Origin: Diogma glabrata
Taxonomy: Eukaryota > Arthropoda > Insecta > Diptera > Cylindrotomidae
Direction: 5' to 3'
Length of the DNA: 64,000 nucleotides
Assembly: GCA_963693315.1 (NCBI GenBank)
Contig: OY856186.1
Coordinates: 133,988,428 to 134,052,427 of the forward strand
The number at the start of each line of letters is the position of its first letter. Positions within the stretch are counted from its first letter, which is position 1. The notes under the pieces are model-generated. The model was not told the origin of the DNA and searched no databases. It saw only the letters and a program-made list of their open reading frames with translations. Below are positions 16,607-63,098 of the stretch, piece by piece. Made by a program: the position numbers and the translations under genes.

Positions 16607-17660
16607 TCAGTTATTATGGTTCTTGATTCCTGATTGGTATTGGACACACACCTCTGGCCACATGCTAAAATAATTCACTATGACTAGCACATATTTGTTG
16701 ATGCTATCAGTAGCCGGAAATGGTCCTTCAATTTTCTCAAATGGCGCTCCCATATTATACTGCCTCATATTACCATAACTTCTTCGTATAGGTCCTTTTG
16801 CAGTAGCTATTCCACGACACCATTCCACTACCAATTGACATGCTCCTGACCAATAAAATCTACGTCGTACTTTGTCAAGGGTTTTGTTAATACCCAGGTG
16901 ACCACCACTGGTTCCACAATAACATTTCTTTAAAAACTTGAGGCATTTTTATTTTTGGGACTACTACTAACATTGATTCTTTAACTGTAACCTTAGAACT
17001 TACAGAGGCTGTTCCATTATGACCAATATGACACTCTAGGTTTTTCGCTTTTTTCACTTATGTAAGCCTCACGTCAATAATGTTTTCCTAGCTTTCGGCC
17101 TGGTTACAGTGCTTGCATTCTGCCTGGCGTTCGTTTACATTTTCATGTGCAGTTCCTGTTCGATGTTTAATGTCAAAATCATAAGCCTGTAAGCGTTTGA
17201 TCCATCGTGCTCCCTACCCCGCCAGGCATTTAAATTGTAATAAACAACTCAATGCTCCATGATCACTACTCAAATAGAACTACAAGTGTTCAAGGAAATG
17301 TTTCACTCATAGCACTATAGCCAGCAATTCTTTGTGGGTTGCACAATAATCCCTTTCTCGCTTGGACAGCGTCCTCGAGTAATAATGTATTACTTTCTCT
17401 TTCCCATCAATTTCATCGATTTCTTTTCCCCTCCCCTCCTATACCATCATTGCTGGTATCAATATTTAATATAAATTTAAGATTGCATAAGATAAACCAG
17501 AACTGGTGCAGATCATAATCTTAATTGAAGCTCCATAATCGCATCGTCTTGCTTTTCGGTCTATTCAAATGCTTTATCTTTTCTTGGAAGCTTATGTAGG
17601 CTCTTAGAAATATAACCAAATTCTGGTATAAAACGTCGGTATTGTACAATCATCGAAAAC
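16607..17660 (-). pseudogene. Ty3/gypsy Pol relic (RT end, RNase H, integrase start)
   Basis: The minus strand carries a gypsy Pol in broken frames. From high to low coordinate: RRFIPEFGYISK, as in the RT thumb (near 17620), DTSNDGIG and a YSRTLSKRERDYCATHKELL block of RNase H (17300-17450), LSSDHGALSCLLQFK and RWIKRLQAYDFDIKHRTG (17170-17280), then integrase GGHLGINKTLDKVRRRFYW (near 16850-16910), the WCRGIATAKG remnant of the zinc-binding region, and NKYVLVIVNYFSMWPE (near 16650-16700). At least six frameshifts or stops interrupt it. It is unrelated in sequence to the intact gypsy element at 31011, and no LTR is visible. Confidence 0.8.
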
Positions 17661-28392: not shown

Positions 28393-30107
28393 ATCAATAA
28401 CATCCCGCGGCACGATATAAAAATCGTGGTAGGTGACTTTAATGCTCAAATTGGTAGGATTGGAGAACTTAAAACACATATCGGCCTTAACAGCTTGCAT
28501 CATACCAGCAACAATAATGGTTTTCGCGCAGCCGAGCTGGCTATGATGTACGATCTAGTAATTTCCAGCACTTTGCGCTTGAATATCGCAGCATTTAAAC
28601 ATCCGGAAACGCTAAATAGATATCAGGAAATAATAACAAAAAACATAGAAGAGCATAACATCTCTTCTGAGATGCCATTAAACATACAAGAAGAATGGTA
28701 AGCGCTTCAATCAACCATTATAGCCGCACAACAAACTACAATTGGAAAACTCGAGGCTCCCAAACTGATTATCTATGGGCCAAGAAAGCCCCAGCAAAAC
28801 TTCTACGTAAAAAGAAACGCAAACACATGAAGAGCTGCATCGAAAACATCAACCTACATGCGGCTGACGGAAATTCAAAAGAGTGCTTTGCCAATGCACG
28901 GCATCTGACAAAAGATTTCCACCCAAGATCTGCAGCCATCAAAAATGAAAATAATGCACTTACAACAAGTGAACGTGATGTGCTGGCAGTGTGGCGATCC
29001 CACTTTCAAGACCTACTGAATAGGACGAATGAAGTTCATCCTATTCGAGCAATTGCTCCATCAACTGAGGAGATTTTTGTCCCTTACCCAGCAATAGAAG
29101 AAGTAGAAGCTGCCATTAAAAAACTGAAAAATGGCAAATCACAAGGTTTTGATGGAAATCCCGCAGAACTCTTGAAAAATGGAGGAGCAGCTCTTGTCTC
29201 ACGTATATACGATCTGATTCTTGCAATCTGGGACCAAGAAGAACTACCTGCTGAATAGAAAACAGCTCTCATTGTTCCGCTACATAAGAAAGTTGCCCGT
29301 CTAAAGTGTGCAAATTATCGTGGCATCGCACTGTTGAACACTGCATATAAAATACTAGCTAATGTCGTACTTGCTCGACTCATCCCGTTTGCTGAATCTA
29401 TCATCGGTGACTATCAGTGTGGTTTTCGTCTCAACCGCTCAACCACAGATCAATGTTTTACATTAAGGATGATTCTAGAAAAACGGGAGTATAACATCAG
29501 CATTCACCAGCTCTACGTTGATTTCAAGCAAGCATATGATAGTATCATCCGCGACAACCTTTGGTCCGCACTCATATGCCTTGGTATCCCAGAGAAACTT
29601 GTTTCTCTGTGCAAACTCACAACATCGGGATCAAATTGTAGAATAGTAATCGAAGGGTCAGTTTCTGATCCTTTCGATAGAACATCAGGTGTTCGACAAG
29701 GTGATGCACTTGCGCCCGTACTATTTAATTTGGCGCTAGAGTATGCGATAAGAAAAAGCCGAATTGATCTAGTCAAGGTCTTGGCTATGCAGATGATATT
29801 GTGCTTCTCGGACGTAGGACAAGCGATATTAAGGATAGTCTCTCTCTGCTTGAAAGAAATGCTAAACGGCTTGGATTATGCATCAACACCGGCAAAACTA
29901 AAGTGTTAAGAACATACCTCCCGGAAATCTGGATACTGGCGACTATGAAGTGGAACGCGTGGAAAACTTCAAATGCCTCGGGTCTGTAATAACATCGTCA
30001 AATGACATGCAGGCAGATATCAAAGCCCGTGTCTCTACCGCATACAGAGTTTTCTACGCATACTCAAAACTTCTGCGATCAAAACATCTCTCGCGGTCGT
30101 GTAAACT
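28393..30107 (+). pseudogene. RTE-clade endonuclease/reverse transcriptase
   Basis: This continues the protein begun at 21842. Endonuclease blocks VVGDFNAQIGR and ISSTL are followed by a deletion. The RT domain then carries NGKSQGFDGNPAELLKNGG, ANYRGIALLNTAYKILANV, GDYQCGFRLNRSTTDQ, YVDFKQAYDSI with the first catalytic Asp, GVRQGDALAPVLFNLALEYA, and, in another frame, GYADDIVLLGRR with the catalytic YADD (near 29787). Defects include a TGG-to-TAG-like stop at 29256, a frameshift near 29775 and another near 29910. Assignment to RTE rests on these block sequences. The C-terminus is lost in the assembly gap. Confidence 0.88.
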
Positions 30108-30307
30108 NNNNNNNNNNNNNNNNNNNNNNNNNNNNNNNNNNNNNNNNNNNNNNNNNNNNNNNNNNNNNNNNNNNNNNNNNNNNNNNNNNNNNNNNNNNNN
30201 NNNNNNNNNNNNNNNNNNNNNNNNNNNNNNNNNNNNNNNNNNNNNNNNNNNNNNNNNNNNNNNNNNNNNNNNNNNNNNNNNNNNNNNNNNNNNNNNNNNN
30301 NNNNNNN
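30108..30307. other. Assembly gap (200 N)
   Basis: Exactly 200 unknown bases, which is likely a placeholder length. Any reading frame shown across it is artificial. The sequence on the right does not visibly continue the RTE protein. Confidence 0.99.
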
Positions 30308-30653
30308 GTATAACTCGAAAGCTCGTGTTTGTCGATTGTATTGCGCACAAGATGGAAGGATATTTTAAATTTCCTTAGAGGAGAATTCGCTAGAATTAGA
30401 AGAACGCTAAAGTTATTTCTTACTGATATTACCAATAGCATGTGATATCTCACTGTAATTCATTAATCAAAGCCAGGAGTATCATACCTGTAGATCAAAA
30501 TTTTTTAAATATTGCAAATCAACAACCACTGATCCGTCCATGTGTTAAAGTTAGTGGACTAAATCTCCTGTTCTTTTGTTTTCGGTTTAAATTTAATAAA
30601 ATTAAATTTTTATTGTAATACTTATTTTTGTAACGATCGGCTATATTAATAAG
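30308..30653. other. Spacer, no gene seen
   Basis: Between the gap and family A copy 3. It could include the RTE 3' end, but I see no diagnostic sequence. Confidence 0.4.
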
Positions 30654-31010: not shown

Positions 31011-31744
31011 TGTTACACTTGACCTATTGCAGTTGATCCATTCGTTATTAGTCTTACTTGAATACCTAAATTTAAGCAAAGAAAATGAAAGACCTTCGTA
31101 CATCCTCCGATCATGAAATCTTATTCATTAAAACCTTTTCCTAATCAATTCAAATAACCATAAAATCGTAATTTTCCACTGGATATAGCTTAATTACACC
31201 TTTTCTTATTATTTTCCACTAAACGATGTGGTAGTAACAGGTAAATATTACTCTAAACTTATACCCAAACACAAACTATTAGAGTTGACGGCATTAAAAG
31301 CTCTTTATTAATTAAAATGAATCCAAAGTAAATTATTTTTCATAATTTTTTTTAATTGGTTTAACATAATCGTCACAATATGACATCATTGAATTTTGTT
31401 TATTTTATAACAAAATCATATACATAAACAATTACAAAAGCAATGATGAATGAAAAACATAATGGATTTGGATGATTGATTGAGGTAGGTTATTGAAACA
31501 AATAAAAACAAGAAAATAGAATATAGGTCAAATAATGAGTAATGATCATAATTGTATTCCAGTTAATTTTTTTGCGAGATTTTTTTTCTTGATATTTAAA
31601 ATTTAAATGCTACGCTTTGAAAATTGTATTGCCATCTTCAATGTTAACCGGAGGTTTTCTAATTAAATCGAGAGTAATTTTAATCGAGAGTCCGGTTGAC
31701 TCTAGAAGTTTCGATTTGGTTAGTAAACTTCCGGTCTGAGAGGG

Positions 31745-31789
31745 TATAAATTCAGTTTTCTTAGAGTGAAACGGTCTCTTTTCAATAAA
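31745..31789 (+). promoter_or_regulatory. LTR TATA box and poly(A) signal
   Basis: TATAAA at 31745-31750 follows a relatively GC-rich stretch. AATAAA is at 31784-31789, only ~35 bp downstream. This tight spacing suggests that transcription starts near the poly(A) signal and that the R region is short or begins around it. The same pair occurs in the 3' LTR near 40904 and 40935. Confidence 0.6.
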
Positions 31790-31870
31790 GTCGTTCGGAC
31801 TTATAACTCGCGCTTGAGTTCCTTTTTTTTAAAGATAAAGTGATTAAAATTAATCAATAAAAAAGAAATT

Positions 31871-32290
31871 TTAGTAACTGGCTAAATTGTGTTGTAGCAT
31901 ATTGTGCAAAAATGTAAAATAAAAAGTTAATTGTAATCATTGTAATTGTTAGCTAGTTAAAAAAATAAATAAAAAAATTAAAAAATTATGAACCAAATTG
32001 AAATTGGTTAAATAAAATAATGAGAAAAATTTGTGTGGTCGAATATTGTGCAAGAATGTAATACTAAAAATAGAAATACTGTATTAGTAACTGGCTAAAT
32101 TGTGTTGTTGCATATTGTGTAAAAAAATGTAAAATAAAAAGTTAGCTGTAATTATTGTAACTATTAGCCATATAAAATAAGAAAATAAAATAATTATGAA
32201 CAAAATTGAAATTTGTTAAATAAAATAATGAGAAAAATTTGTGTTGTCGAATATTGTGCAAGAATGTAAAACTAAAAATAAAAATACTGT
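31871..32290 (+). repeat. Two tandem ~223-bp units in the LTR
   Basis: Both units begin TTAGTAACTGGCTAAATTGT (31871 and 32094) and share GCATATTGTG, GTAAAATAAAAAGTTA and GTCGAATATTGTGCAAGAAT. The same pair occurs in the 3' LTR (about 41031-41450). Non-coding. Confidence 0.85.
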
Positions 32291-33479
32291 AACTATTGTA
32301 TTTAATTAGTTTAAAACAAAATCAAAAATAATAAACTAAAATTATTAAGTAAATATGAAAATATTTAAAATAAAAGAAAATTTTTCTTGTGATTAAATAA
32401 CTTTGGGTAAAATTTATTGTGTTAGTAGTATCAAGTTGTATACCCCAAGGCCTTCCAAGACTGTGATCCATGTTGAGTGTTAGTGAATGTTAAGAACAAT
32501 TAACTAAAGAAATAATAGAATAAAATTTTTTTTTAAAAAGAATAAAACTAAATAAAATATATATGATGGAAGGTAAAAACTCGAATGAATCCGTACTAAC
32601 TCTATATAGTCATTTGCAGTTACTAACGGGATTGTTTATCGATATAGTGATTTGATAATTTTGTAATATATTCTGTAACACTGAAATTCATGGATGTTCC
32701 TCAATGTCATATGAAAATACATAAAATCTACTTGTCATGCTGAATAAATATTTTATGGTTTATTAAACATATCGTTCGATTTAAATTTGGATATTTGATT
32801 ACACACACTGATGAAGAAGAATTATAAGGCGCTCAGAATTGAACAAAAATTATTTACTTGCTGCTTAACCTTGGAATTTACATATTTTTGTTGTATTTGT
32901 AAGGAGAATCGGATCATGAAGTTATCCAACTATGATGAACAGATGACTACCAACCAACGATGTATGAGTGAGTTATTTTAATTAATTTTTCTTTAATATA
33001 AGAGCTTAACGTGAAATAAAAATCAAAAAAAAAATTTTTAAGAAGAAATGAAACAAATTTGAGTTAGAAATATAAATTAGCACTTAGGATTTTCTTGTTG
33101 CTTAATATAATTATTGCTTAATCTTTTTTAGTTAATTTAATCTTTCTAATCACATTTGTGATTAACATGTTATTAAAAAAAAATGAATTTACAGCGATAT
33201 GTAACCAAATAATATGATATAGACTCTAATTTTTTATGGTGTAGCAAATGATTCCTCTCTTCTTTCTCTCTCTCGATTCTTGGACCTGCAAATAATTTTT
33301 TTTTGGAAAGACGATTCTGGTTTAACATAAAGGTACTCTTAGAAATTTTTCCTTGTACACGGTCAAGATCACAATAAGAACTCTGACACTAGAGCTTTAA
33401 TCCCGCAAATACTGATTTGAAGTACCACGTGATCATTCTAATATTATATAATTATTTAATCAAGAAACCGTTACAAAGA

Positions 33480-33497
33480 TGGCGCCGAAACAGGGAC
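33480..33497 (+). promoter_or_regulatory. Primer-binding site, tRNA-Lys type
   Basis: TGGCGCCGAAACAGGGAC lies four bases after the 5' LTR end. It matches 17 of 18 positions of the classical tRNA-Lys3 primer site (TGGCGCCCGAACAGGGAC). This supports minus-strand priming by tRNA-Lys and the Osvaldo/Ulysses placement. Confidence 0.85.
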
Positions 33498-33767
33498 CTG
33501 AAAAAGAAGTTTATTCCAAATTCAGTACGTTTTGTAAATTTTTCTTCAAGTTGAGTAAATTCACATGTGTATTTGTAAATTTTGTCCTTGTTTGATTCTG
33601 AGTATAATTCTGAGTATAAATGAAAAATTGTATGATTGTGTTGTATGTAAACAGGTTTTGTGATTTTGCATGTTGCATGTGTGCATGGTTCTTGTATGTT
33701 GCATGATAATATAGGTTGTATGATTTGTTTACTCTTCTTGTTGAACTATTGATTCAAAACATTTTTA

Positions 33768-35270: not shown

Positions 35271-36107
35271 ATGCAGAACGATAAGTCCGGATTTTGTTCC
35301 ATCTGCCAAGAAGAACTTTTACCTTCCCAAATAATCTCAAGAACTCCTTGTCGACATATCTTCCATGAAAGTTGCGTAACGGGATGGATCAAGCTCAATC
35401 AAACGTGTCCGAACTGTCAACAAAAAGTTAAGTTAGATGATTTATTATTGTACTCGAAACTGCCGAGATTCGCTCCGACTGGCACAATTTCCAAACCACA
35501 AACGCGATCCCAAACAGCCGAAAAACGACTGAATGTAGGAGGAGCTACTGCTGCAAATCCAATAACTGCTAGTTCGTCCTTACATAATGCTCCTAGGCGG
35601 CCCAATTTCAGTTCAACCGTGTTGGATCATTCCCAACAAATAAATACAGAGGAACAACTTCATCAAACGTTAAAGGATATGATGCTAGTTCCAGACGACT
35701 TCGTATCAAGGAACGATAAAGTGGGATCACAACCACATGGGCCTCGTATCCACGAGTCACTCTTGACTCCGCCCAGTCATGCATCAAACCTTTACAATTC
35801 GTCTCGAGTTTTAAATCCAGTAGCTCACAGGAATCAGATCAACAATGAAAAAAATTCTAATACCATTCGTAATTGGCATGTAACATTCAGTGGCAAATCA
35901 GACGGTTTAGATATCAATGAATTTATTTATAGAATTGGTGTTTTAAATAGTCTTTCTTTCCCTGGCACCAACGATACTTTGGTCGCACACTCGCATTTGT
36001 TGTTCGTGGGTAGAGCTGCAGAATGGTATTGGCGATATCATCATAGGACGCCACAATTTAACTGGGAAAACTTATGTCATGCAGCTCGTGTTGAGTTTGG
36101 GAGATAG
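35271..36107 (+). CDS. RING-H2 finger fused to Gag (first part)
   Basis: The start is taken at ATG 35271; the frame is open slightly upstream but has no earlier ATG. Residues 9-49 form a complete RING-H2 zinc finger, C9-x2-C12-x14-C27-x-H29-x2-H32-x2-C35-x10-C46-x2-C49. Ile11, Trp39 and Pro47 are at positions that contact E2 enzymes in known E3 ligases. A low-complexity linker follows. From about residue 202 (WHVTFSGKSDGLDINEFIY) the sequence matches the Gag capsid-like region of gypsy elements, including AAEWYWRYH. The frame stops at residue 278 after HAARVEFG, where one extra G in a GGG run shifts the frame, and Gag continues from about 36102 in the next frame. RING fusion implies ubiquitin ligase activity, which is inferred. 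An N-terminal RING is not a standard gypsy Gag domain. Confidence 0.88.
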   Translation: MQNDKSGFCSICQEELLPSQIISRTPCRHIFHESCVTGWIKLNQTCPNCQQKVKLDDLLLYSKLPRFAPTGTISKPQTRSQTAEKRLNVGGATAANPITASSSLHNAPRRPNFSSTVLDHSQQINTEEQLHQTLKDMMLVPDDFVSRNDKVGSQPHGPRIHESLLTPPSHASNLYNSSRVLNPVAHRNQINNEKNSNTIRNWHVTFSGKSDGLDINEFIYRIGVLNSLSFPGTNDTLVAHSHLLFVGRAAEWYWRYHHRTPQFNWENLCHAARVEFGR

Positions 36108-36726
36108 GAATTCTGATGATGAAATGATTGATAAAATTCGAGCGAGGAAACAAAGGTCTACTGAAACTTTCGATACAATGTACAATGACATACTTCGTTT
36201 CTGCGATAAATTAAATAATCCTTTGAGTGATCAGGTACTGCTAGGCATCCTGATTAATAATTTGAAAGTGGAAATACGTAAAGAATTGCTATATGTAAAT
36301 GTTGTGTCCATTGAACAGCTTAGGGAGTTATGTCGCCGACGAGAAAAACTGTGGACTCCCGCTTCATCGACGCTTCGTAATTTTTCAGCTCGACCTGCCG
36401 TGTCTGAAATTTCGCCAGCAGTTGATCTACCTGAGATTTCAGAGGTGAGACAACTACACACTGAAATCATTCCTCATTCTTTATCACATCTGGGAATTCC
36501 GAAAGCAGAGTTATATGCATACCAAGGTGTTCTAGATACTTCGAAAAAAACAATTGCCTGTTGGAACTGTAAAGTTCAGGGCCACGGTTTTCGTCAATGT
36601 CAACATCCCCTGCGACTATTTTGTTTTGGTTGTGGTATGGACAATACGTACCTTTTTAAATGTGACAATTGTCGTTTAAACTTAAAGGGGAGCGTGACCA
36701 ACAAAGAATCACGCTCCCAGAAATAA
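36079..36726 (+). CDS. Gag, second part with zinc knuckles
   Basis: The true content starts near 36102 (GDRNSDDEMIDKIRARKQRS), continuing the capsid-like region from the previous frame. The C-terminal half has a CCHC knuckle, C-x2-C-x4-H-x4-C (CWNCKVQGHGFRQC), then a cysteine-rich segment beginning FCFGCG and ending CDNC, resembling the degenerate second knuckle of Osvaldo-type Gags. These bind genomic RNA during assembly. The frame ends at TAA 36724, shortly after A-AAG-GGG (36684-36690), a canonical -1 slippery pattern overlapping the next frame. Confidence 0.85.
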   Translation: MQLVLSLGDRNSDDEMIDKIRARKQRSTETFDTMYNDILRFCDKLNNPLSDQVLLGILINNLKVEIRKELLYVNVVSIEQLRELCRRREKLWTPASSTLRNFSARPAVSEISPAVDLPEISEVRQLHTEIIPHSLSHLGIPKAELYAYQGVLDTSKKTIACWNCKVQGHGFRQCQHPLRLFCFGCGMDNTYLFKCDNCRLNLKGSVTNKESRSQK

Positions 36727-37103
36727 ACCCAACCCAGTGTGACTCAGTAAGATCACCGAGTTCGCCATCAGACTTAGAGGACGAAGATACCACAAACAAA
36801 GCAATTGATTTAAAGGGGTGTGCACTGAAGAAAACAACGAACTTGGATTCACAACTAAAGCTTTTAAAACGTGATACTACGGTAAGCACACCAACTGTAA
36901 TCTCTGCTAATTGGGAAACACCTTATCAACGACTTCAGAATTACCTTTCTGTGAGATCACGCTTAGGGATTAATGAGGTAGTAGGAACATTGAATCGAAC
37001 ACGATCTACCATCAGAATGCGAAAGTTTTGGAAAACTCGTCACTCATATAAGTCTTCTGTTCTGTCCTCAGTAGTTTCAGTCAAGAATGATAATAGGTTG
37101 TAA
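36669..37103 (+). CDS. Gag-Pol linker frame
   Basis: This open frame overlaps the end of the zinc-knuckle frame in the -1 phase. It has no ATG at its left edge, so it is not an independent gene; it would be reached by -1 frameshifting at 36684-36690. The peptide is charged and unstructured in look (DLEDEDTTNKAIDLK), with a basic C-terminal part (GTLNRTRSTIRMRKFW), and no recognised domain. Pol lies in a further -1 phase and starts at 37097, so a second shift or a one-base mutation separates them. Confidence 0.6.
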   Translation: MSFKLKGERDQQRITLPEINPTQCDSVRSPSSPSDLEDEDTTNKAIDLKGCALKKTTNLDSQLKLLKRDTTVSTPTVISANWETPYQRLQNYLSVRSRLGINEVVGTLNRTRSTIRMRKFWKTRHSYKSSVLSSVVSVKNDNRL

Positions 37104-40084
37104 TTTTTAATACGAAACGGATAGGCCTTTTAGATAGTGGTGCTTCTCTTAGCGCGATTGGTGGAGCGTTCGCTCAAGAACTTTTGGCAATTCCTAATCT
37201 GTTGACGAAGTCTACAGCGAAGGTGAAGACTGCAGATGGAGCTAGTCAGAAAATTATTGGCCACTTTAACACAAAAATCTCATTCTTGGGTGTTAACAAA
37301 AAAATGGAATTCATGGTAATTCCATCGCTCACTCAAGATTTGTACTTGAGAATTGACTTCTTTATTCAATTCAATCTATATCAACCTTTAACAAAACAAC
37401 TGTCGCTATTGAATGAAAATTCAAGATTAGCTAGTCTGTCATTGGAAGAACAAGAGAGGCTCGAAGATACCATCCAACTCCTGCCGTCCTTTTCGAAGCT
37501 GGGATTGGGAAGGACTCATTTGTTGGAGCACGTCATTGATACGGGTGACGCGACTCCAATAAAACAAAGACACTATCCGATATCTCCTGCCATCGAAAAG
37601 TTAATGGGCGAGGAGTTGGACCGAATGCTCTCTTTAGGTATAATCGAGAAATCATCAAGTTCTTGGAGCTCACCTGTCGTCCTAGTTAGGAAGCCAGGGA
37701 AGGTGAGACTTTGCCTTGATTCAAGGAAGGTTAATAACGTCACGAAAAAGCTAGCATATCCTTTGCCCCAGATTGAAGGTATATTGAGTCGATTGCCGAA
37801 ATCCAACTTCATTTCTAGTCTTGATCTAAAAGATGCCTTTTGGCAGATCCCAATGGAGTGCCATTCCAAAGAAAAAACCGCTTTCACAGTGCCCGGAAGA
37901 CCACTCTATCAATATGTTCGTATGCCCTTTGGTCTTTGCAATGCTGCTCAAACTATGACTATGTTGATGGACCGAGTGATACCTCCTAGTCTAAAGAATC
38001 AAGTTTTTGTATACCTTGATGATTTGTTGATTGTGACTCCTACGTTTGAAACACACCTCCAAACGCTTGAAGAAATTGCTAAACATTTGAAGCGAGCGAA
38101 TCTTACGATCAATATTGAGAAAAGTAAGTTCCTTAGACCGGAAATAAAATACCTTGGATATGTAATTAGCAAGGAAGGTATCAGCATTGATGAAGAGAAG
38201 GTGGCAGCTATTGAAAGGTTTCCTATCCCAACTTCAATCCGACAAATTAGAAGATTCTTAGGTATGTCTGGATACTACCGGCGATTTATCTCAGAGTTTG
38301 CGTCACTCACATCTCCTATTTCCAACTTGCTAAAAAAATCAACGGGTAGATTTCAGTGGACGGAAGAAGCTGATGTGGCATTTAACCTAATTAAGAAAGC
38401 GTTAACGACAGCTCCAATTTTGGCCAACCCTAATTTCACCAAACCTTTTACTTTGCAATGTGATGCAAGCAATGATGGTGTAGGATGTGTGTTGACGCAA
38501 CTCGATGATGATGACGTCGAACATCCTGTAGCGTTTATGTCAAAGAAATTGAATGCAGCTCAGCGTAACTATTCGGTGAGTGAGAAGGAGTGTCTGGCAG
38601 TGATTCTTGGCATTAAAAAGTTCAGAGCTTACATCGAAGGACACCCATTTAAGGTCATAACAGACCATGCTTCATTGAAATGGTTGATGAAACAAACCGA
38701 CTTGTCAGGTCGTCTAGCGCGATGGAGCCTGAAATTACAGGGTTATTCGTTTGAAATTGAATACCGACGAGGAACCCTGAATGCTGTTCCAGATGCCCTT
38801 TCTCGCATACCTTGTGTGGATGCGTTGATCACAACTGATGAACAAGAAATTGACCTGAACTCACCGATGTTTCAATCACCCAATTACTTAAAATTGATTC
38901 AGATAGTGAAGGACGGGAAAACAACTTTGCCAGATTTGAAGTTATTAGGCGACAAAGTATACAAAAAGTTTGGTTTTTCTTCGTGCATTGAAGGTGAACA
39001 GTGGAAGCTTTGGGTGCCTGAAGAATTAACTTCTGGATTGATAATGAAAGCTCATGGCCTACCAACATCGGCTCATGCTGGTGTCGCAAAGACTGTGCAC
39101 CATCTTAGACGCTTCTACTTTTGGCCTCATATGTTCTCACAAGTTAAATCACACATAACAAACTGTAAGATTTGTAAGGAAGTGAAACCAACCAATCAAG
39201 TCCTTAGAGCACCAATGGTTACTTCCGTCAAAACTGATCGTCCGATGCAACGTTTATACGTTGATATTTTAGGCCCTTATCCTGGAACCAAGACTGGCAG
39301 TGTGGCGATTCTCATCGTCTTGGATCATCTTACTAAATTTACCTTTTTGTTCCCTCTTAGCAGATTAACTTCCGAGCCAATATGTAAATTTATAGAGTGT
39401 TATGTGATTCGAACATTTGGTTGTCCTGAAATAATCGTCTCAGACAACGGAACCCAGTTCACTTCAGTATTTTTCCAAAATTTCCTAGCTAAATATGGCA
39501 TCAAACAATTGCGTACCGCTCTTTACTCTCCTCAAGCTAATGCTTCAGAGAGAGTGAACCGTAGTATTTTAGCTGGAATAAGGGCTTACTTGAGGGATGA
39601 TCATACTAAATGGGACACCCACTTAAGCGATATTGCCAGTGCCCTTCGGAGTATGATTCATGCGTCAATAGGCTGCTCTCCATATTATGCCTTGTTTGGT
39701 ATTAGCATGATCACACATGGATCCACCTATACACTATGGAAGAGCTTGAAGTGTCTAGAGGAATCAAATGAAGAGATGGATCAACAGGATCATTTATCCA
39801 AAATAAGAATTTTATTAAAGAGTAAGATCTCAGATGCATACCTGAGGAGTGCTAGCCGTTATAATCTAAGAACTCGGAAACCTCTGTTCAAAGTTGGAGA
39901 CATTGTCTTCCGTCGCAATTTCATCTTAAGCGATTCCAGTAAAAAGATTTCTGTTAAACTATCTTTAAAGTTTATTGAATCAAAAGTTATTCGACTCGTA
40001 GGGAATTCCTTGCTAGAACTCGAAGACGTCAATAGTGGAAAGAAGGGTACTTACCATTCAAAGGATATCAAATATGGTAATTAG
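37097..40084 (+). CDS. Pol: protease, reverse transcriptase, RNase H, integrase
   Basis: The frame is open from just after a TAG at 37094 and has no internal stop, so it depends on frameshifting from upstream. Protease: LLDSGASLSAIGG with catalytic DSGA at 37133. RT: YLDD at 38012, preceded by FSSLDLK-like and MPFGLCNA blocks. RNase H: CDASNDG, SEKECLAVI and TDHASLKWL. Integrase: a His/Cys zinc-binding region ending CKICK, then the catalytic triad in LYVDILGP, SDNGTQFTS and NASERVNRS. A C-terminal FKVGDIVFRR segment resembles the gypsy GPY/F module. All catalytic residues I expect are present, so Pol looks functional although gag is shifted. The domain order places it in Ty3/gypsy. The stop is 78 bp before the 3' LTR. 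Confidence 0.95.
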   Translation, partial: VVIFNTKRIGLLDSGASLSAIGGAFAQELLAIPNLLTKSTAKVKTADGASQKIIGHFNTKISFLGVNKKMEFMVIPSLTQDLYLRIDFFIQFNLYQPLTKQLSLLNENSRLASLSLEEQERLEDTIQLLPSFSKLGLGRTHLLEHVIDTGDATPIKQRHYPISPAIEKLMGEELDRMLSLGIIEKSSSSWSSPVVLVRKPGKVRLCLDSRKVNNVTKKLAYPLPQIEGILSRLPKSNFISSLDLKDAFWQIPMECHSKEKTAFTVPGRPLYQYVRMPFGLCNAAQTMTMLMDRVIPPSLKNQVFVYLDDLLIVTPTFETHLQTLEEIAKHLKRANLTINIEKSKFLRPEIKYLGYVISKEGISIDEEKVAAIERFPIPTSIRQIRRFLGMSGYYRRFISEFASLTSPISNLLKKSTGRFQWTEEADVAFNLIKKALTTAPILANPNFTKPFTLQCDASNDGVGCVLTQLDDDDVEHPVAFMSKKLNAAQRNYSVSEKECLAVILGIKKFRAYIEGHPFKVITDHASLKWLMKQTDLSGRLARWSLKLQGYSFEIEYRRGTLNAVPDALSRIPCVDALITTDEQEIDLNSPMFQSPNYLKLIQIVKDGKTTLPDLKLLGDKVYKKFGFSSCIEGEQWKLWVPEELTSGLIMKAHGLPTSAHAGVAKTVHHLRRFYFWPHMFSQVKSHITNCKICKEVKPTNQVLRAPMVTSVKTDRPMQRLYVDILGPYPGTKTGSVAILIVLDHLTKFTFLFPLSRLTSEPICKFIECYVIRTFGCPEIIVSDNGTQFTSVFFQNFLAKYGIKQLRTALYSPQANASERVNRSILAGIRAYLRDDHTKWDTHLSDIASALRSMIHASIGCSPYYALFGISMITHGSTYTLWKSLKCLEESNEEMDQQDHLSKIRILLKSKISDAYLRSASRYNLRTRKPLFKVGDIVFRRNFILSDSSKKISVKLSLKFIESKVIRLVGNSLLELEDVNSGKKGTYHSKDIKYGN

Positions 40085-40162: not shown

Positions 40163-42684
40163 TGTTACACTTGACCTATTGCAGTTGATCCATTCGTTAT
40201 TAGTCTTACTTGAATACCTAAATTTAAGCAAAGAAAATGAAAGACCTTCGTACATCCTCCGATCATGAAATCTTATTCATTAAAACCTTTTCCTAATCAA
40301 TTCAAATAACCATAAAATCGTAATTTTCCACTGGATATAGCTTAATTACACCTTTTCTTATTATTGTCCACTAAACGATGTGGTAGTAACAGGTAAATAT
40401 TACTCTAAACTTATACCCAAACACAAACTATTAGAGTTGACGGCATTAAAAGCTCTTTATTAATTAAAATGAATCCAAAGCAAATTATTTTTCATAATTT
40501 TTTTTAATTGGTTTAACATAATCGTCACAATATGACATCATTGAATTTTGTTTATTTTATAACAAAATCATATACATAAACAATTACAAAAGCAATGATG
40601 AATGAAAAACATAATGGATTTGGATGATTGATTGAGGTAGGTTATTGAAACAAATAAAAACAAGAAAATAGAATATAGGTCAAATAATGAGTAATGATCA
40701 TAATTGTATTCCAGTTAATTTTTTTGCGAGATTTTTTTTCTTGATATTTAAAATTTAAATGCTACGCTTTGAAAATTGTATTGCCATCTTCAATGTTAAC
40801 CGGAGGTTTTCTAATTAAATCGAGAGTAATTTTAATCGAGAGTCCGGTTGACTCTAGAAGTTTCGATTTAGTTAGTAAACTTCCGGTCTGAGAGGGTATA
40901 AATTCAGTTTTCTTAGAGTGAAACGGTCTCTTTTCAATAAAGTCGTTCGGACTTTATTGAAAAGGAACTCGCGCTTGAGTTCCTTTTTTTAAAGATCAAG
41001 TGATTAAAATTAATCAATAAAAAAGAAAGTTTAGTAACTGGCTAAATTGTGTTGTTGCATATTGTGCAAAAATGTAAAATAAAAAGTTAATTGTAATTAT
41101 TGTAATTGTTAGCTAGTTAAAAAAATAAATAAAAAAATTAAAAAATTATGAACCAAATTGAAATTGGGTAAATAAAATAATGAGAAAAATTTGTGTGGTC
41201 GAATATTGTGCAAGAATGTAATACTAAAAATAAAAATACTGTATTAGTAACTGGCTAAATTGTGTTGTTGCATATTGTGTAAAAAAATGTAAAATAAAAA
41301 GTTAGTTGTAATTATTGTAACTATTAGCCATATAAAATAAGAAAATAAAATAATTATGAACAAAATTGAAATTTGTTAAATAAAATAATGAGAAAAATTT
41401 GTGTTGTCGAATATTGTGCAAGAATGTAAAACTAAAAATAAAAATACTGTAACTATTGTATTTAATTAGTTTAAAACAAAATCAAAAATAATAAACTAAA
41501 ATTATTAAGTAAATATGAAAATATTTAAAATAAAAGAAAATTTTTCTTGTGATTAAATAACTTTGGGTAAAATTTATTGTGTTAGTAGTATCAAGTTGTA
41601 TACCCCAAGGCTTTCCAAGACTGTGATCCATGTTGAGTGTTAGTGAATGTTAAGAACAATTAACTAAAGAAATAATAGAATAAATTTTTTTTTAAAAAAG
41701 AATAAAACTAAATAAAATATATATGAGGGAAGGTAAAAACTCGAATGAATCCGTACTAACTCTATATAGTCATTTGCAGTTACGAACGGGATTGTTTATC
41801 GATATAGTGATTTGATAAATTTGTAATATATTCTGTAACACTGAAATTCATGGATGTTCCTCAATGTCATATGAAAATACATAAAATCTACTTGTCATGC
41901 TGAATAAATATTTTATGGTTTATTAAACATATCGTTCGATTTAAATTTGGATATTTGATTACACACACTGATGAAGAAGAATTATAAGGCGCTCAGAATT
42001 GAACAAAAATTATTTACTTGCTGCTTAACCTTGGAATTTACATATTTTTGTTGTATTTGTAAGGAGAATCGGATCATGAAGTTATCCAACTATGATGAAC
42101 AGATGACTACCAACCAACGATGTATGAGTGAGTTATTTTAATTAATTTTTCTTTAATATAAGAGCTTAACTACATAATTTTAAAAGGAAATATCATACGT
42201 GAAATAAAAATCAAAAAAAAAAATTTTTTAAGAAAAAATGAAACAAATTTGAGTTAGAAATATAAATTAGCACTTAGGATTTTCTTGTTGCTTAATATAA
42301 TTATTGCTTAATCTTTTTTTCTGGTACATAGTTAATTTAATCTTTCTAATCACATTTGTGATTAACATGTTATTAAAAAATGAATTTACAGTATGTAAAT
42401 AAATGATATGTAACCAAATAATATGATATAGACTCTAATTTTGTATGGTGTAGCAAATGATTCCTCTCTTCTTTCTCTCTCTCGATTCTTGGACCTGCAA
42501 ATAATTTTTTTTTGGAAAGACGATTCTGGTTTAACATAAAGGTACTCTTAGAAATTTTTCCTTGTACACGGTCAAGATCACAATAAGAACTCTGACACTA
42601 GAGCTTTAATCCCGCAAATACTGATTTGAAGTACCACGTGATCATTCTAATATTATATAATTATTTCATCAAGAAACCGTTACA
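40163..42684 (+). repeat. 3' LTR
   Basis: Starts TGTTACACTTG and ends CCGTTACA. It is the fuller copy, keeping the poly(A) hairpin and the extra blocks missing from the 5' LTR. The 78 bp before it (ending GGACTAGTCC) contain no purine-rich tract. Confidence 0.93.
40930..40964 (+). promoter_or_regulatory. Poly(A)-signal hairpin in the LTR
   Basis: CTTTTCAATAAAGTC (40930-40944) pairs perfectly with GACTTTATTGAAAAG (40950-40964) across the five-base loop GTTCG. AATAAA is buried in the stem. Such poly(A) hairpins are known from lentiviral R regions, where they modulate 5' versus 3' signal use. The 5' LTR copy (31780-31805) lacks most of the right arm. Confidence 0.75.
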
Positions 42685-43232: not shown

Positions 43233-45914
43233 TAAAAAAAAGTCGGACAAGTGCGAATAAAATTCGCTCGCCAAGGGTTCCGTGAATGTAAAAGAACACA
43301 ATATCAAAAATAAATGACATAAAGTTAAGTTGTAAAGTCTTTATATCGCCAGACTATGGACACATAACAGAATAAATGTTTAATCGTAAACGTCAATAGT
43401 AAATGTCAATCACATCTATATTGATCAAAAATGTTACTTGAGGTTAAATCTTATCCATAGCTGTTTATGTTAGCTAAAGAAAGATTTAACCAGTATTTTA
43501 ATGGTCTAAATTGGGAATATTTGTTCTATATATCAGCGTCGAAATATAGGGTGGTATACATACACTTAAAATAGCACTTTTTTTCATCAATAACTAAAAA
43601 CTGTGCATCGCAGAATTCTTAAAAATGTTGCAATGTTTCTTAAATTAAGTGTTCTTCCAAATGACACCCCCCTCGTTTGGTTCCAAAAAAGTTTTTTTTT
43701 GAACTCCCCACACCCATCCCCTAAACACACAGAAATATAATTATTTGAGAGTTCGCTATGATTTTCGTTAAAAATATAGCAAAATTCCTGTCTCCATGAA
43801 TTTTTTCTGTCTATCAGTGACGAAACGTAGGGGGGGGAACGGTCTGGAATTTACACATTTTTTAGAATAACTCAAAAACTGTGTACCGCAAAATTCTAAA
43901 AACAATTGCAATGTTTTAACAATTTGGTGCTCTTTCAAATGACACCCTACTCGCTTGGGTCAAAAAAGATTTCTTTTACCCTCCCCACACCCATCCCCTA
44001 AACACACATAAATATAATTATTTGTGAGTTCGCTATAATTTTCGTTAAAAATATAGCAAACTTCCTGTCTCTATGAATTTTTTCAATTTTTTCTGTCAAT
44101 CAGTGTCGAAACGTAGGGGGGAACGGTCTGGAATTTGCAAATATTTTAGGATAACTCCAAAACTGTGTATCGCAAAATTCTAAAAAAAATTGCACTGTTT
44201 TGGAAATTTGTTGTTCTTTCAAATGATACCCCACTCACTTGGGTCAAAAAAAGTTTTGTTTTACCCCCCTTACACCCATCCGCTAAACACACAGAAATAT
44301 AAATATTTGAGAGTTCGCTATAATTTTCGTTAAAAATATAGCAAACTTCCTGTCTTTATGAATTTTTTCAATTTTTTCTGTCAATCAGTGTCGAAACGTA
44401 GGGGGGAACGGTCTGAAATTTGCACATTTTTTAGCATAACTCAAAAACTGTGTACCGGCTAATTCTAAAAAAAATTGCAATGTTTTGATAATTTGGTGTT
44501 CTTTCAAATGATACCCCACTCGCTTGGGTCAAAAAAAGTTTTTTTTTACCCCCCTTACACCCATCCCCTAAACACACAGAAATATAATTATTTGAGAGTT
44601 CGCTATAATTTTCGTTCAAAATATAGCAAACTTCCTGTTTCTGCGAATTTTTGCAATTTTTTCTGTCAATCAGTGTCGAAACGTAGTGGGGGGGGGGGGG
44701 ACGGTTTGGAATTTGCACATATTTTAGAATAACTCAAAAACTGTGTACCGGAAAATTCTAAAAAAAAATGCAATGTTTTGATAATTTGGTGCTCTTTCAA
44801 ATGATACCCCACTCGCTTGGGTCAAAAAAAGTTTTTTTTACCCCCCTTACACCCATCCCCTAAACACACAGAAATATAATTATTTGAGAGTTCGCTATAA
44901 TTTTCGTTCAAAATATAGCAAATTTCCTGTCTCTATGAATTTTTTCAATTTTTTCTGTCAATCAGTGTCGAAACGTAGGGGGGAACGGTCTGGAATTTGC
45001 ACATTTTTTAGAATAACTCAAAAACTGTGTACCACAAAATTCTAAAAAAAATGCAAAGTTTCTGGTTTCAAGGTGCTCTTTCAAATGACAGCCCATTCGC
45101 TTGGGTCGAAAAAAATTTTTTTCACCCTTCCCCACCCCAATCCCTTAAAAACACAAAAATATAATTATTTGAGAGTTCGCTATATTTTTCATTCAGAGTT
45201 TATCAAACTTCCTGTCTCTGTGAATTTTTTCAAATTTTTCTGTTAATCAGGCTCGAAATGCAAGGGGGGGGGGGGGGGAGGGGACCAACTTTTTGTGTCA
45301 CTTTATTGATAATAATTCAAAAACTATGCATTGCAAAATTCTAAAAAAATGGCAATATTTCTAAAATCAAGTGCTCTTTCAAATGACACCCCACATGACC
45401 TGGTCTTAAATGATGTTTATACCCCTTAACATTCCCACCCCTTTAATAAATATAGTTATGAGTATCTGCCACTTTCCTATATTTTTCATTAAAAACCTAC
45501 TCAATTTTCTATCATTCCAAATATATTTCAAGACTTTCGATGAAGTGGGGTCGGAGTTATTCGGGGCAAAACATCCAGAAAATGTCATTTTTCTAAATTA
45601 TACAAAAAATGGTGAGGTGTAAAATTCCAAAATATGTTTTTAAATAATGCTGAAATGAAGCCCTTTCATATGATACCCTACTCGTATCGATAAAAAAATG
45701 TATGTTTTCAAAGGCTTTACATCGTACCTCCTTAAAACAAACGAACACAACTTTATTTATTTTTTAACCCACCATCTTGTGTGGATAAGTTAGTTTTATA
45801 AGCACCTCAAATTTTAAGTTCATCGGATTAATGGTTCACGAGATAATCGAAATAATGTGAAAAACACTTTGTACTCTCACCAATAGTGTTCCGTATAAAA
45901 AACGGAACCCTAAC
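43233..45914. mobile_element. Left tandem array of a foldback-like element, ~285-bp unit
   Basis: The outer end is AAGTCGGACAAGTGCGAATA followed by AAGGGTTCCGTG. The inner end is CGTATAAAAAACGGAACCC. Between them the word CACCCATCC near AAACACACAGAAATATAATT recurs at 43711, 43987, 44273, 44558, 44850 and 45133, with a diverged copy near 45425. The period is 276-292 bp. Each unit includes TCAGTGTCGAAACGTAGGGG and ATGATACCCCACTCGCTTGG. The inverse array is at 52669-54238. The AAGTCGGACAAGTGCGA..GGGTTCCGT and ACGGAACCCTA ends resemble a repeat type I recall as widespread in moth and other insect genomes. Confidence 0.8.
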
Positions 45915-46228: not shown

Positions 46229-46994
46229 ATTCGTAATTTGTTTTGAATGTTTGTTGTTGTTGTTTTGAAGATTTATTATTGTTTTGAATTAGGAATAGTT
46301 TTTTTTGAATATTTGGAAGTGGTTTAGTTGAAATAAATATATGTATGGGCAATTTCACGAAGATTCAACAACGTTTTGACTTGACCTCTTTTAATTTTGA
46401 TTATTTTTTGTTTATAGATTGTCTTTCATAAATAAAAAATACAAGTTCTCTTAGAATTTTTTTTTCGACCAGGTGTCTTCACAGGGTGCCCCTCAATTTT
46501 TTTGTTATTTTGTGATGTGAGTGCATTTTGACGAGCGATTGTAGAAAAACTAATTAATCGATTTTCATAAATGATATGTCTTTGAATAGGTATTAGAACA
46601 AAGTTTTTAAAAATGTACACTGTTAATTTTTTGAAATAATTTTTAACGGTGTAACATAAGAAAAAAACGGTGTAATTGAAAAAAAGATGGCATAGCCTCT
46701 TTTTTTTTTTTTTTAAACAAAATTGAAGCTTATTTTATATCTAACAACTTGTGAAAGTTTAGGACTAGTTATATTTTTTGTTTTAAAGATAAAATTCGTT
46801 GTGCATATGACTGTCGGGAATCAGTTTTTTTTGTTCTGAAGGAAAATTATAAAAATGGCGTTATAAACTAAGAGATTTTTTTTTTATGTTAAATATCAAA
46901 TATTTTATTATTAGATGAACTTTTTAAAATATTATAAAAATTATATATGTAGTACAATAAAGAAAATAAATACAATTGTTAAAAATGATTTACT

Positions 46995-47077
46995 TATTTT
47001 ACAAACAGAAGTTTCTTTTGAATAGGAAAGCACTTCTGCAATTATTTTCTTTGTGTTATATGGCATAAAAAATGAAA
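46995..47077 (-). pseudogene. Second, diverged copy of the Sola-like transposase C-terminus
   Basis: Translated on the minus strand it gives SFFMPYNTKKIIAEV and SYSKETSVCKISK, aligning residue for residue with the end of the frame at 47344 (SFVPVDTKTINAKM, SNSKETFECKISK). The flanking DNA is duplicated too: 46860-46960 resembles 47225-47340. This shows a tandem duplication or a chimera of two family members. Confidence 0.65.
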
Positions 47078-47343
47078 TGTTTATTTATCACTTTTAGTAA
47101 TCACTTGTCACTCTTATAAAAAATAATTTGACAGTCTTGACTGCAAACAAAAAAGCCGTATCAACAACTAAATCCATTTAGGAACTTTTGACTGCAGAAG
47201 TATTATGTTCGTATTATGTTATTATGGAATCATAAAGTAAAAGATTGTTTTTCAACATTAAATTACAAATATTTTATTATTGAATAAACTTTTTAAAATA
47301 CCATACAAATTATATATGTGAAAATAAATATAGTTATTAAAAA

Positions 47344-48057
47344 TTATTTACTTATTTTACATTCAAAAGTTTCTTTTGAGTTGGAAAACATTTTTGCATT
47401 TATTGTCTTAGTATCTACTGGTACAAAAGAATGAAATTTTCTAGTTCCACTTATAGTAATCGCATTTTTAAATCGATTTTGTAATTTTTCTTTTGTTAAT
47501 TGATATTCATTTTTATCGGCGTATCCAAAGTTCATGGTAGATTCCCATTTTAAAGCCCATTCGAAAAGATTTTTTGGTGTATCAATAATATTATCTTCGC
47601 TCGCCATACTATAACGGTGTGCAGCACGCTTCAGTGTACCACCAATTCCATCACAAGGTCCCTTTCCATGGCTGGTAGCATGAAAATGCCATTCAGCATC
47701 AACCTTAAAGTCTTCTTTATGGTGGCATAAGTTAATTAGGTTATGTTTATTTTTGTATTGAGAAGGTGCACCGTCAGTGTTATAAATTATTTTTGTAATA
47801 TTAGAATTTATATGCGTTTTGATGAATTCAATAAGTTTTGTAATGAAAAGATGGACTGTAGTACTGTTGTGATCGTTTATATCCGAAATGAGTATAAAAC
47901 TTCGGTGCTGTATATATTCACTTGTGGCACTTTTAAAATAAATGACAAAAGGATGAATAGTAGCTTGTGAATTATTATAATAATAGCCTTGAGCCGCATT
48001 CTGAATTATAAAGCCGTAGTTTTTAGAAAAATCCCCTTGAACTAAGCTAAGATCCAT
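47344..48057 (-). CDS. Sola-like transposase, catalytic-core fragment
   Basis: A 237-residue open frame. It shows VQGDFSKNYGF near residue 6, QATIHPFVIYF, ILISDINDHN, then IIYNTDGAPSQYKNK and FHATSHGKGPCDGIGGTLKR. The block 'HGKG.CDG.GG..KR' after 'DGA..QYKNK' is the signature I associate with Sola2-type DDE transposases. Asp8 and the Asp of NTDGAPSQ are candidate catalytic residues. The N-terminal half (DNA binding) is absent; the first ATG lies just before the catalytic fold, so the true protein probably had upstream exons now lost. A second, diverged copy of its last ~30 codons lies just downstream at 46995-47077. The family call is from memory of motifs. Confidence 0.7.
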   Translation of the reverse strand: MDLSLVQGDFSKNYGFIIQNAAQGYYYNNSQATIHPFVIYFKSATSEYIQHRSFILISDINDHNSTTVHLFITKLIEFIKTHINSNITKIIYNTDGAPSQYKNKHNLINLCHHKEDFKVDAEWHFHATSHGKGPCDGIGGTLKRAAHRYSMASEDNIIDTPKNLFEWALKWESTMNFGYADKNEYQLTKEKLQNRFKNAITISGTRKFHSFVPVDTKTINAKMFSNSKETFECKISK

Positions 48058-48779
48058 ATTAGTTTACGCCTGTATTCACTTAAAATTAAAAGTAGGATTT
48101 TCAAATTTTTCAATCATGCATATCTAAAAAAACAGCCTCCTTTTAAGGGATTAACCAGGTAAATTCACAGGTAAATAAAAACAAAATTCAATTTTATTTA
48201 AAAAAAAAAATAAAAAAGTGGGATTAGATGCTAGCTTCATCTTTTAAACTTGTTTTCTTATGTAACACCATTCTAGGACATATCATTTATATTGTTATTA
48301 TAATTATATTATTATATTTAAAAATATAATACAGTAAAACTCGTTTTTAAAGTACGGTCAAGGGACCGACGTAAGCGTACGTTATACACCATGGTACGTT
48401 ATATCCATAAAAATTAAAAAAGTTTAAGCAAATTTGCCTGTTATTCTCATTATATCATTGTATTTCATATTAAATTATTTACTACATGTTAATTGATATA
48501 AAACCGATCACAAAAAATAGGAAGATATAGTTTAAAAACAATTCATTATCATAAAATAGTTATGGTAAAGTTAATCAAACCAACGCTACATAAACATATG
48601 AATGTATGTTAATATTTTCGGATGAGAATGACTGAATATTGGCCTACTCAGATTAATCTGCGATGGACAATTTTTTTACTGAAAAATAATCAGTAATTTT
48701 CTGTTGTTTAAGGCAAAGTTGAATAATATTTTCCACTTTAATTACAATTTGGTCGTCAATTTGCATTTGATCAAATCCG

Positions 48780-49200
48780 GGCTGCAAACCTGATTAGCAA
48801 GCGCGTAGCGTACGGATTTAACCCCGCAGTTGCGTAGTTTATTCAAAACTTTCTCACCGACCAATACATTTCGGTATCCATTGATGGCTTTTCTTCTTCG
48901 TCTAAATTAACTAACGCTGATGTACCACAAGGTTTAGTTTTGTCACCACTTTATTTTTAATTTTTTACTTTTAAATTAAAATCACCAGCAACCCAATAAA
49001 TAATTTTTCAGATGATAGTACACTATACAAGTCATTTGTTTTCCTATCTTTAAAAGGGAAAAGGCATGAACGAATAAAGCCCGCCCGGAGAGACTCTGCC
49101 ATAAATGTAAATGATAGCCTAAAAGTTTCCAATTGGGGTGACTGAAATATGTTCAATTTTAACTCAATCAAAACATGACTATTGATTGTTGCCAGATCAA
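48780..49200 (+). pseudogene. Non-LTR RT fragment, catalytic region
   Basis: Reads AANLISKRVAYGFNPAV, then SVSIDGFSSSSKLTNADVPQ and GLVLSPLYF (the 'GVPQGSVLSP.LF' block). After a frameshift comes INNFSDDSTLY, where FSDD stands at the YADD position, and KVSNWGD before FNSIKT. The catalytic box has two changes and stops interrupt it, so it is dead. It lies inside the Sola-like element in the opposite orientation to the transposase. Confidence 0.7.
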
Positions 49201-50235
49201 CGACCGAGTTTGCCAAAGATATTTCGATTAGTGTGTTTCGATTAAAATGTCGCAAAATTTTGCTGAGCTTGACTGAAATTGCTTTTTAAAAAGTTCATTT
49301 AATAATAAAATATTTGATATTTAACATAAAAAAAAAATCTCTTAGTTTATAACGCCATTTTTATAATTTTCCTTCAGAACAAAAAAAAATGATTCCCGAC
49401 AGTCATATGCACAACGAATTTTCTCTTTAAAACAAAAATATAGCTAGTCCTAAACTTTCACAAGTTGTTAGATATAAAATAAGCTTTAATTTTGTTTAAA
49501 AAAAAAAAAAAGGCTATGCCATCTTTATTACACCGTTTTTTTCTTATGTTACACCGTTAAAAATTATTTCAAAAAGTTAACAGTGTACATTTTTAAAAAC
49601 TTTGTTTTAATACCTATTCAACGACATATCATTTATGAGAATCGATTCAGTAGTTTTTCTACAATCGCTCGTCAAAATGCACTCACATCACAAAATAACA
49701 AAAAATTGAGGGGCACCCTGTGAAGACCCCTGGTTGAAAAAAAAAATTCTAAGAGAACTTGTATTTTTTATTTATGAAATACTATCCATAAACAAAAAAT
49801 AATCAAAATTAAAAGGGGTCAAGTCAAAATTTCCCAAAAATTTGCTGAACTTGCGTGAAATTGCTCGTATATTGATTACATATTTACAATTGATATTTGT
49901 ATTATATTTGAGGTGTAAAAGTTGTTTGATGTTGTTGTTGATTATAAATTATAGTATGGCAGTTGTGATGTAGTTAGAACGTTAATCCACCAAAGAATTT
50001 AATTTGATATTAAGGAGTTTTAACCAAATTAAACAAAACTATTCGAAATTGCATAGACAAAGTAGTTTCTGTTTATGTATTTAGTTTGGTTGTTTGATAA
50101 ATTTTTTCGATTTTCAGTTTCTAGTTAAATTTTTTATTTAAACTAATCTGACATATCCAATTCTATTTGAACACAAAGCTGTCTGGTCCCGAAATCTACC
50201 TATTTCTAGGATATACGTGCCGCTTGGACTTTTTT

Positions 50236-62381: not shown

Positions 62382-63098
62382 GATTTTAATGATGATCGCG
62401 AAAATGCAGAGGAAACATTTCATTGTATCATGCAAATTATTGAGAAAAGCTCTCAACAAACAAATATGGAAATAAAAATACCTCATTTAGCAAACAACCA
62501 GAAACATCGGACAAACGTACCTTGTGATTCCGCTGAATCGTATTACAGAAGATCAGTTTTCATTCCGTATTTAGATTCTTTAATAACTTCATTGACTGAG
62601 CGATTTTCAGAAGAAAATGAACCAGCTTATTTAATTTTTCACCTACATCCTAAAAATATGCAGCAATTAATAAAAACGGAATATGAAAATGTAATAAAAG
62701 ACATCCAAAATAGGTATGGCTGTTATTTCGAAAATTTTGCAGCAGATGCCTCAGTTTGGTTGGCATATTGGAAGGATAAACCAAAAAAGAATATTGATAA
62801 TTTAAGCTTCCTTTATTTACTTAATTATTCTGTTTTATTTTATCCATCTATTTATTTGGCAAATAGTTTGGCTCTGACTCTTCCAGCCACCCCTTGCGCA
62901 GTAGAGAGGTCATTTAGTACTCTACGCAGAGTTAAAACCTGGATGCGATCAACAATGGTTGAGGAAAGGCTAGATGGCCTTTGTATGATGAGTGTCCATC
63001 GACATATAATAGAGGATATGAAAGAAGAATACTATGAATTAGTAATTAATCATTTTGGATTGGAGAAGCGGAGATTGCAGTTTCTTTTTTCAAAATAA
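62382..63098 (+). CDS. hAT transposase, C-terminal exon
   Basis: The exon follows a good splice acceptor (..TATCAGTTTTAG|GAT) and is open in one frame to the stop at 63096, about 238 codons; the internal ATG at 62430 is probably not the real start. An N-terminal segment (YYRRSVFIPYLDSLITSL) matches ZMYM/52-kDa-repressor-like hAT proteins. The C-terminal part has the hATC dimerisation block (LALTLPATPCAVERSFSTLR, VKTWMRSTM, RLDGLCMMS). This domain mediates multimerisation of the transposase. No stop or frameshift breaks it, although the DDE core exons are not seen upstream. It may be the end of a recently active element or an isolated exon. Confidence 0.8.
   Translation, partial: DFNDDRENAEETFHCIMQIIEKSSQQTNMEIKIPHLANNQKHRTNVPCDSAESYYRRSVFIPYLDSLITSLTERFSEENEPAYLIFHLHPKNMQQLIKTEYENVIKDIQNRYGCYFENFAADASVWLAYWKDKPKKNIDNLSFLYLLNYSVLFYPSIYLANSLALTLPATPCAVERSFSTLRRVKTWMRSTMVEERLDGLCMMSVHRHIIEDMKEEYYELVINHFGLEKRRLQFLFSK

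Follow-up and report, generated by a model that had tools for sequence, protein, structure and literature searches.

A reading frame in the genome of the dipteran Diogma glabrata appears to join a RING-type zinc finger to the Gag protein of an LTR retrotransposon. The frame lies in a stretch of 64,000 nucleotides, hereafter the window (assembly GCA_963693315.1, contig OY856186.1, positions 133,988,428 to 134,052,427). For their ubiquitination, the Gags of retroelements are generally assumed to depend on ligases of the host. The locus raises two questions: is the finger a genuine and lasting part of this Gag, and what could it do there?

The element and its RING finger

The element has the features of a Ty3/gypsy retrotransposon (Table 1): LTRs, a Gag with a capsid region, and a Pol in the order protease, reverse transcriptase (RT), RNase H and integrase, the protease motif having been recognized by eye. 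The capsid region of the window Gag is matched by Ty3_capsid at residues 200-272 with an E-value of 2.9e-4, which is below the curated cut-off of that model. Three related Gags match Retrotrans_gag above the cut-off and also match zf-RING_2, at E-values of 1.1e-10, 2.1e-12 and 1.8e-10. The second part of the window Gag gave no match to Pfam gag or CCHC models. The primer binding site, which we take to be of the tRNA-Lys type, and the long LTRs, rather than a tree, are the grounds for placing the element among the Osvaldo/Isis-like Ty3/gypsy LTR retrotransposons, in agreement with the first-pass annotation. Osvaldo-lineage elements of Culex use a tRNA-Lys primer, as described in the accessible part of PMC3286476. 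The placement is suggestive only, because the LTRs of Isis are given as 742 bp in the accessible part of PMC3630058.

Table 1. Features of the element in the window
Feature	Position	Strand	Basis
5' LTR, 2465 bp, TGTTAC...GTTACA, internal two-copy 208-bp repeat	31011..33475	+	blastn of both ends
Primer binding site TGGCGCCGAAACAGGGACC, presumed tRNA-Lys type	33480..33498	+	sequence read
Gag part 1: RING, variable linker, capsid start; stop within capsid region	35271..36107	+	ORF, Pfam
RING-H2 finger, residues 7-52	35289..35426	+	Pfam, PDB, conservation, selection
Fast-evolving linker from RING to capsid, residues 62-190	35454..35840	+	identity, dN/dS
Gag part 2, other frame: remaining capsid region and two Cys/His knuckles	36079..36726	+	ORF list, by eye
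Open frame between Gag and protease, without Pfam match	36669..37103	+	ORF list, Pfam
Pol frame, 995 aa: protease motif LLDSGAS, then RT, RNase H, integrase	37097..40084	+	Pfam; protease by eye
3' LTR, 2522 bp	40163..42684	+	blastn of both ends

The blastn alignment of the two LTRs spans 2523 columns and contains 24 mismatches as well as 14 gap openings. They had been called near-identical, a description that holds for substitutions only; with gaps counted, identity is 96.7%. The 208-bp repeat is present in two copies inside each LTR (31871-32291 and 41031-41451, tandem repeat search). No target-site duplication is visible, because the four flanking bases on the two sides (TGGT and CATT) do not match; recombination between copies is one explanation for its absence. 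The gag of the window copy is broken by a stop near 36.1 kb; the remainder of Gag is read in a different frame, up to 36726. Its pol is also broken, with a frame of 995 aa versus 1127-1181 aa in many other copies. With both frames interrupted, the window copy is not intact.

Other repeats surround the element. A 285-bp satellite of 5.9 copies (43589-45258) starts some 0.9 kb past the end of the 3' LTR, and a long inverted repeat follows at 46349-49854. Pieces of its arms are 86-98% complementary and enclose a 237-aa frame (47344-48057, reverse strand) that has no Pfam match; the inverted repeat is possibly a foldback DNA transposon. A fragment of a hAT transposase (Pfam Dimer_Tnp_hAT) lies at 62430-63098. 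Pieces of a non-LTR-type reverse transcriptase lie at 28695-30378 (RVT_1 at 29334-29909), next to a stretch of 200 N (30108-30307). A further gypsy-like Pol fragment, 35% identical to the Pol of the window element, occupies 17145-17408 on the reverse strand.

According to the open reading frame list and its translation, the ATG at 35271 opens a forward-strand frame of 278 codons with its stop at 36107. Residues 9, 12, 27, 29, 32, 35, 46 and 49 of this frame are C, C, C, H, H, C, C and C, the ligand order and spacing of a C3H2C3 RING-H2 finger, and Pfam zf-RING_2 (PF13639) matches residues 9-50 with 47.9 bits (E 1.6e-12) against a curated cut-off of 27.3 bits. Further Pfam RING models also match the N-terminus of the window Gag; NCBIfam profiles gave weak matches only, far below cut-off. 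The nearest solved chains in a PDB search are the RINGs of synoviolin/HRD1, ZNRF1 and RNF126. Single-sequence structure models bearing on the cross-brace fold are of low confidence, with mean pLDDT of 36 and 48. In RINGs, a hydrophobic residue, a Trp and a Pro make contact with the E2 enzyme, and the corresponding positions in the window RING are Ile11, Trp39 and Pro47. The first-pass annotation had described a complete C3H2C3 finger with these three contact positions and had suggested a search with the Pfam RING_2 profile; the description holds, and the profile matches as stated above. Active RINGs usually, though not universally, carry an Arg or Lys after the last ligand, the linchpin; the window RING has Gln there. 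The spaced C3H2C3 motif occurs once in the 64-kb window and in none of 100 windows simulated with a first-order Markov model. The finger had further been placed in one uninterrupted frame with a capsid-like Gag. The frame does run from the finger into the Ty3_capsid match, but it stops inside the capsid region.

Conservation of the finger across the genome

The 1.33-Gb assembly that contains the window was searched with the window Gag, which gave at least 185 matches with identities ranging between 100% and about 40%, as well as separate RING-only matches near 29% identity. Gag frames are unbroken in many of the other copies, at about 480-576 aa. A search with the RING (66 residues) gave at least 150 scored matches; those with short frames, three of 146 aa among them, did not enter the reading. 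In total, 106 loci were retrieved. Elsewhere in the genome, three further copies carry a RING 100% identical to that of the window, each in an open frame of 491 aa. Across the many RING-bearing Gags, the fingers diverge down to about 30% identity between them. Some same-orientation gag copies lie 9-10 kb apart (G000 C4:151291221/151300431, C1703:16478/25474 and C1:251156927/251166895); from the Gag-search coordinates they look like tandem elements that share an LTR.

Loss of ligands in related copies had been named as a result that would speak against the finger, and here the outcome is mixed. At 64 of 66 loci from the Gag search, the ligand pattern is retained and lies in an open frame no shorter than 100 aa; this set includes the window copy and was chosen mostly among long Gag matches. 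The two exceptions (L037 and L045) are broken Gags in which ligands were lost or a stop was gained. Fourteen of 16 loci chosen from the RING search carry the pattern. One ligand is changed in L070, in an otherwise open Gag frame, and one in L080, of which only a small part of the sequence was visible. The ligands are also invariant in an alignment of 28 rows, but these were picked by a pattern that requires the ligands; that invariance is therefore not independent evidence, and 64 of 66 is the fairer figure for ligand retention.

Relatives were also collected independently of the RING, by means of the RT/RNase H region of Pol; this query produced 91 matches, whose coordinates were compared with 121 rows of the Gag search (RING-only, most partial and unlisted rows being left out). 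For 56 of the 91 Pol-selected relatives, the window copy included, the Gag match upstream extends across the RING. In 11 others, which belong to a family with a RING about 29% identical, the Gag match covers only residue 72 onward; the RING was seen in three of these, in the Gag search or in a fetched locus (L057), and eight were not read at the RING. The remaining 24 have no upstream Gag match, and all were read directly: 12 have the RING pattern, one has a RING with a stop inside, five have a gag that is missing its 5' part, and six have no gag similarity (four of these over 1.2 kb only). Full-length copies without the RING would have argued against its being a regular component of the element. 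Wherever the RING region of a Pol-selected relative could be read (91 matches, eight of them not read), no RING-less Gag that was otherwise intact came to light.

Sequence comparison of 16 chosen Gags gave mean identities of 0.48 for the RING, 0.28 for the linker and 0.57 for the capsid start. Apart from the ligands, Phe31 and Trp39 are invariant, and Pro26 and Pro47 are each kept in 15 of the 16. Position 11 is Ile, Val or Leu in all 16, such that the Ile, Trp and Pro expected at the E2 contact in the window have counterparts in 16, 16 and 15 Gags, respectively. The linchpin is more variable: it is Gln in nine Gags, including the window family, Arg in five, Lys in one and Leu in one. The window family lacks the Arg or Lys typical of RING E3 ligases, which six of the 16 possess. 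Distances between RINGs track distances between the rest of the Gags (Mantel rho 0.69, p 0.001, 28 rows), as expected if the two parts were inherited together.

Selection was estimated from six chosen close pairs. The pooled dN/dS of the RING is 0.106 (95% interval 0.050-0.189), similar to that of the capsid start (0.082, 0.037-0.157); the values for the linker and for the rest of Gag are 0.235 (0.169-0.314) and 0.213 (0.164-0.270). The intervals of the RING and the linker overlap slightly. Among 18 pairs taken singly, the RING ratio is 0.04-0.11 in seven, and ten are saturated and yield no ratio; a ratio of 0.77 for the pair L005/L007 rests on one synonymous change. The pooled ratio indicates that the RING is under purifying selection, in line with the test that the first-pass annotation had proposed for the eight zinc ligands. 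The comparisons as a whole indicate that Gag in this group carries the RING as a lasting component maintained by selection and not as a new fusion.

Possible roles of the Gag RING

On balance, we are inclined to read the RING from its sequence as an active ligase that acts on Gag or on proteins bound to the particle. The finger would recruit a ubiquitin-loaded E2 through Ile11, Trp39 and Pro47. Because the RING precedes the capsid and is joined to it by a variable linker, many copies of the finger may be held on each assembling Gag particle, where either Gag or a particle-bound host protein could become ubiquitinated. Self-ubiquitination that steers how Gag is assembled, transported or turned over would be the favoured use, and an effect on a host restriction protein the second. 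TRIM5 is a RING-bearing protein of the capsid lattice. It is possible, although we hold the idea only tentatively, that every Gag of Osvaldo-lineage elements bears a ubiquitin ligase encoded by the element, producing a dense particle array that would be the retroelement counterpart of TRIM5, would ubiquitinate Gag or particle-bound host defence proteins, and would have been selected through the divergence of many Gag families. The RING would not be indispensable to the lineage, because Isis is said to lack it in the accessible part of PMC3630058.

The main rival reading, which we consider less probable, is that the RING is a structural zinc module without ligase activity, used in oligomerization, in binding nucleic acid, membrane or host protein, or as a stand-in for matrix. 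The Gln linchpin in nine of the 16 chosen Gags suits such a module, and selection on the ligands and fold fits it equally well. Viral RING proteins with structural roles also exist, such as arenavirus Z. Against a purely structural module stand the retention of the positions that touch the E2 in other RINGs (Ile, Val or Leu at position 11 in 16 of 16, Pro47 in 15 of 16) and the Arg or Lys linchpin in six of the 16, and we continue to favour an active ligase.

Explanations in which the finger is foreign to the element fare far worse. It is very improbable that a host RING gene was transduced once into a single element and has no function there. The sole point for such an event is the abundance of RING genes in animals. 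A one-off transduction had been raised with the original description of the finger, but the RING proved to be common to many diverged Gags, down to about 30% RING identity, rather than confined to one element, and the idea was rejected on this breadth; the purifying selection on the RING and a published relative in another fly (PMC3630058, accessible part) also oppose it. We give almost no credence to a chance Cys/His pattern or to an assembly artefact that joined a host RING exon to the element. The frame breaks in gag and pol of the window copy could be cited in favour of an artefact, but the motif was absent from all 100 simulated windows, and the three other genomic copies with an identical RING in open 491-aa frames refute both versions. 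Since Gag begins with a RING under selection in many families, it can be tested directly whether a transposon has a ligase of its own, as favoured here, and which proteins it would mark.

Comparison with known systems

The first-pass annotation implied that a RING in a Ty3/gypsy Gag was new, a view overtaken by work already in print. Negre and Simpson (2013, PMC3630058), in the part of the paper accessible, describe a blowfly element of the Osvaldo lineage whose Gag contains a RING and state that Osvaldo has one, which reduces the surprise of the present Gag. A figure legend of the same paper marks a RING in a Pao element, and the accessible part of a 2026 survey of Drosophila virilis has RING among the domain abbreviations of an element figure (PMC12910113). 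Searches of open-licence papers found no functional study of this domain. Scans of viral contigs with Gag and Pol, and of prokaryote genomes with Gag, confirmed no relatives.

The closest counterpart by published description, as opposed to sequence, is Cv_Isis-like of Calliphora vicina (PMC3630058, accessible part). It likewise belongs to the Osvaldo lineage of gypsy and has LTRs of about 2.5 kb, a Gag of about 500 aa with RING and CCHC, a Pol of about 1140 aa and no env. It differs in having a 531-aa Gag and a CGTG target duplication, whereas the window copy has a broken gag and pol and no visible duplication. The same source places Osvaldo and Isis, both of Drosophila buzzatii, in this lineage. 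Osvaldo is said to carry a RING; Isis, unlike the window element, is said to lack it and to have an env and LTRs of only the length given above. Mosquito elements of the lineage share the Lys primer site and have LTRs of 997-2055 bp (PMC3286476, accessible part); no RING is described for them in that text, which contains no word starting with "ring".

Among cellular proteins, the RING-H2 E3 ligases synoviolin/HRD1, ZNRF1 and RNF126 share the ligand spacing and the Ile, Trp and Pro contact positions with the window RING. Unlike them, the window RING is fused to a capsid and has Gln at the linchpin. The RING-bearing Gag is thus a known feature of this group of elements, which the genome-wide conservation and selection presented here extend.
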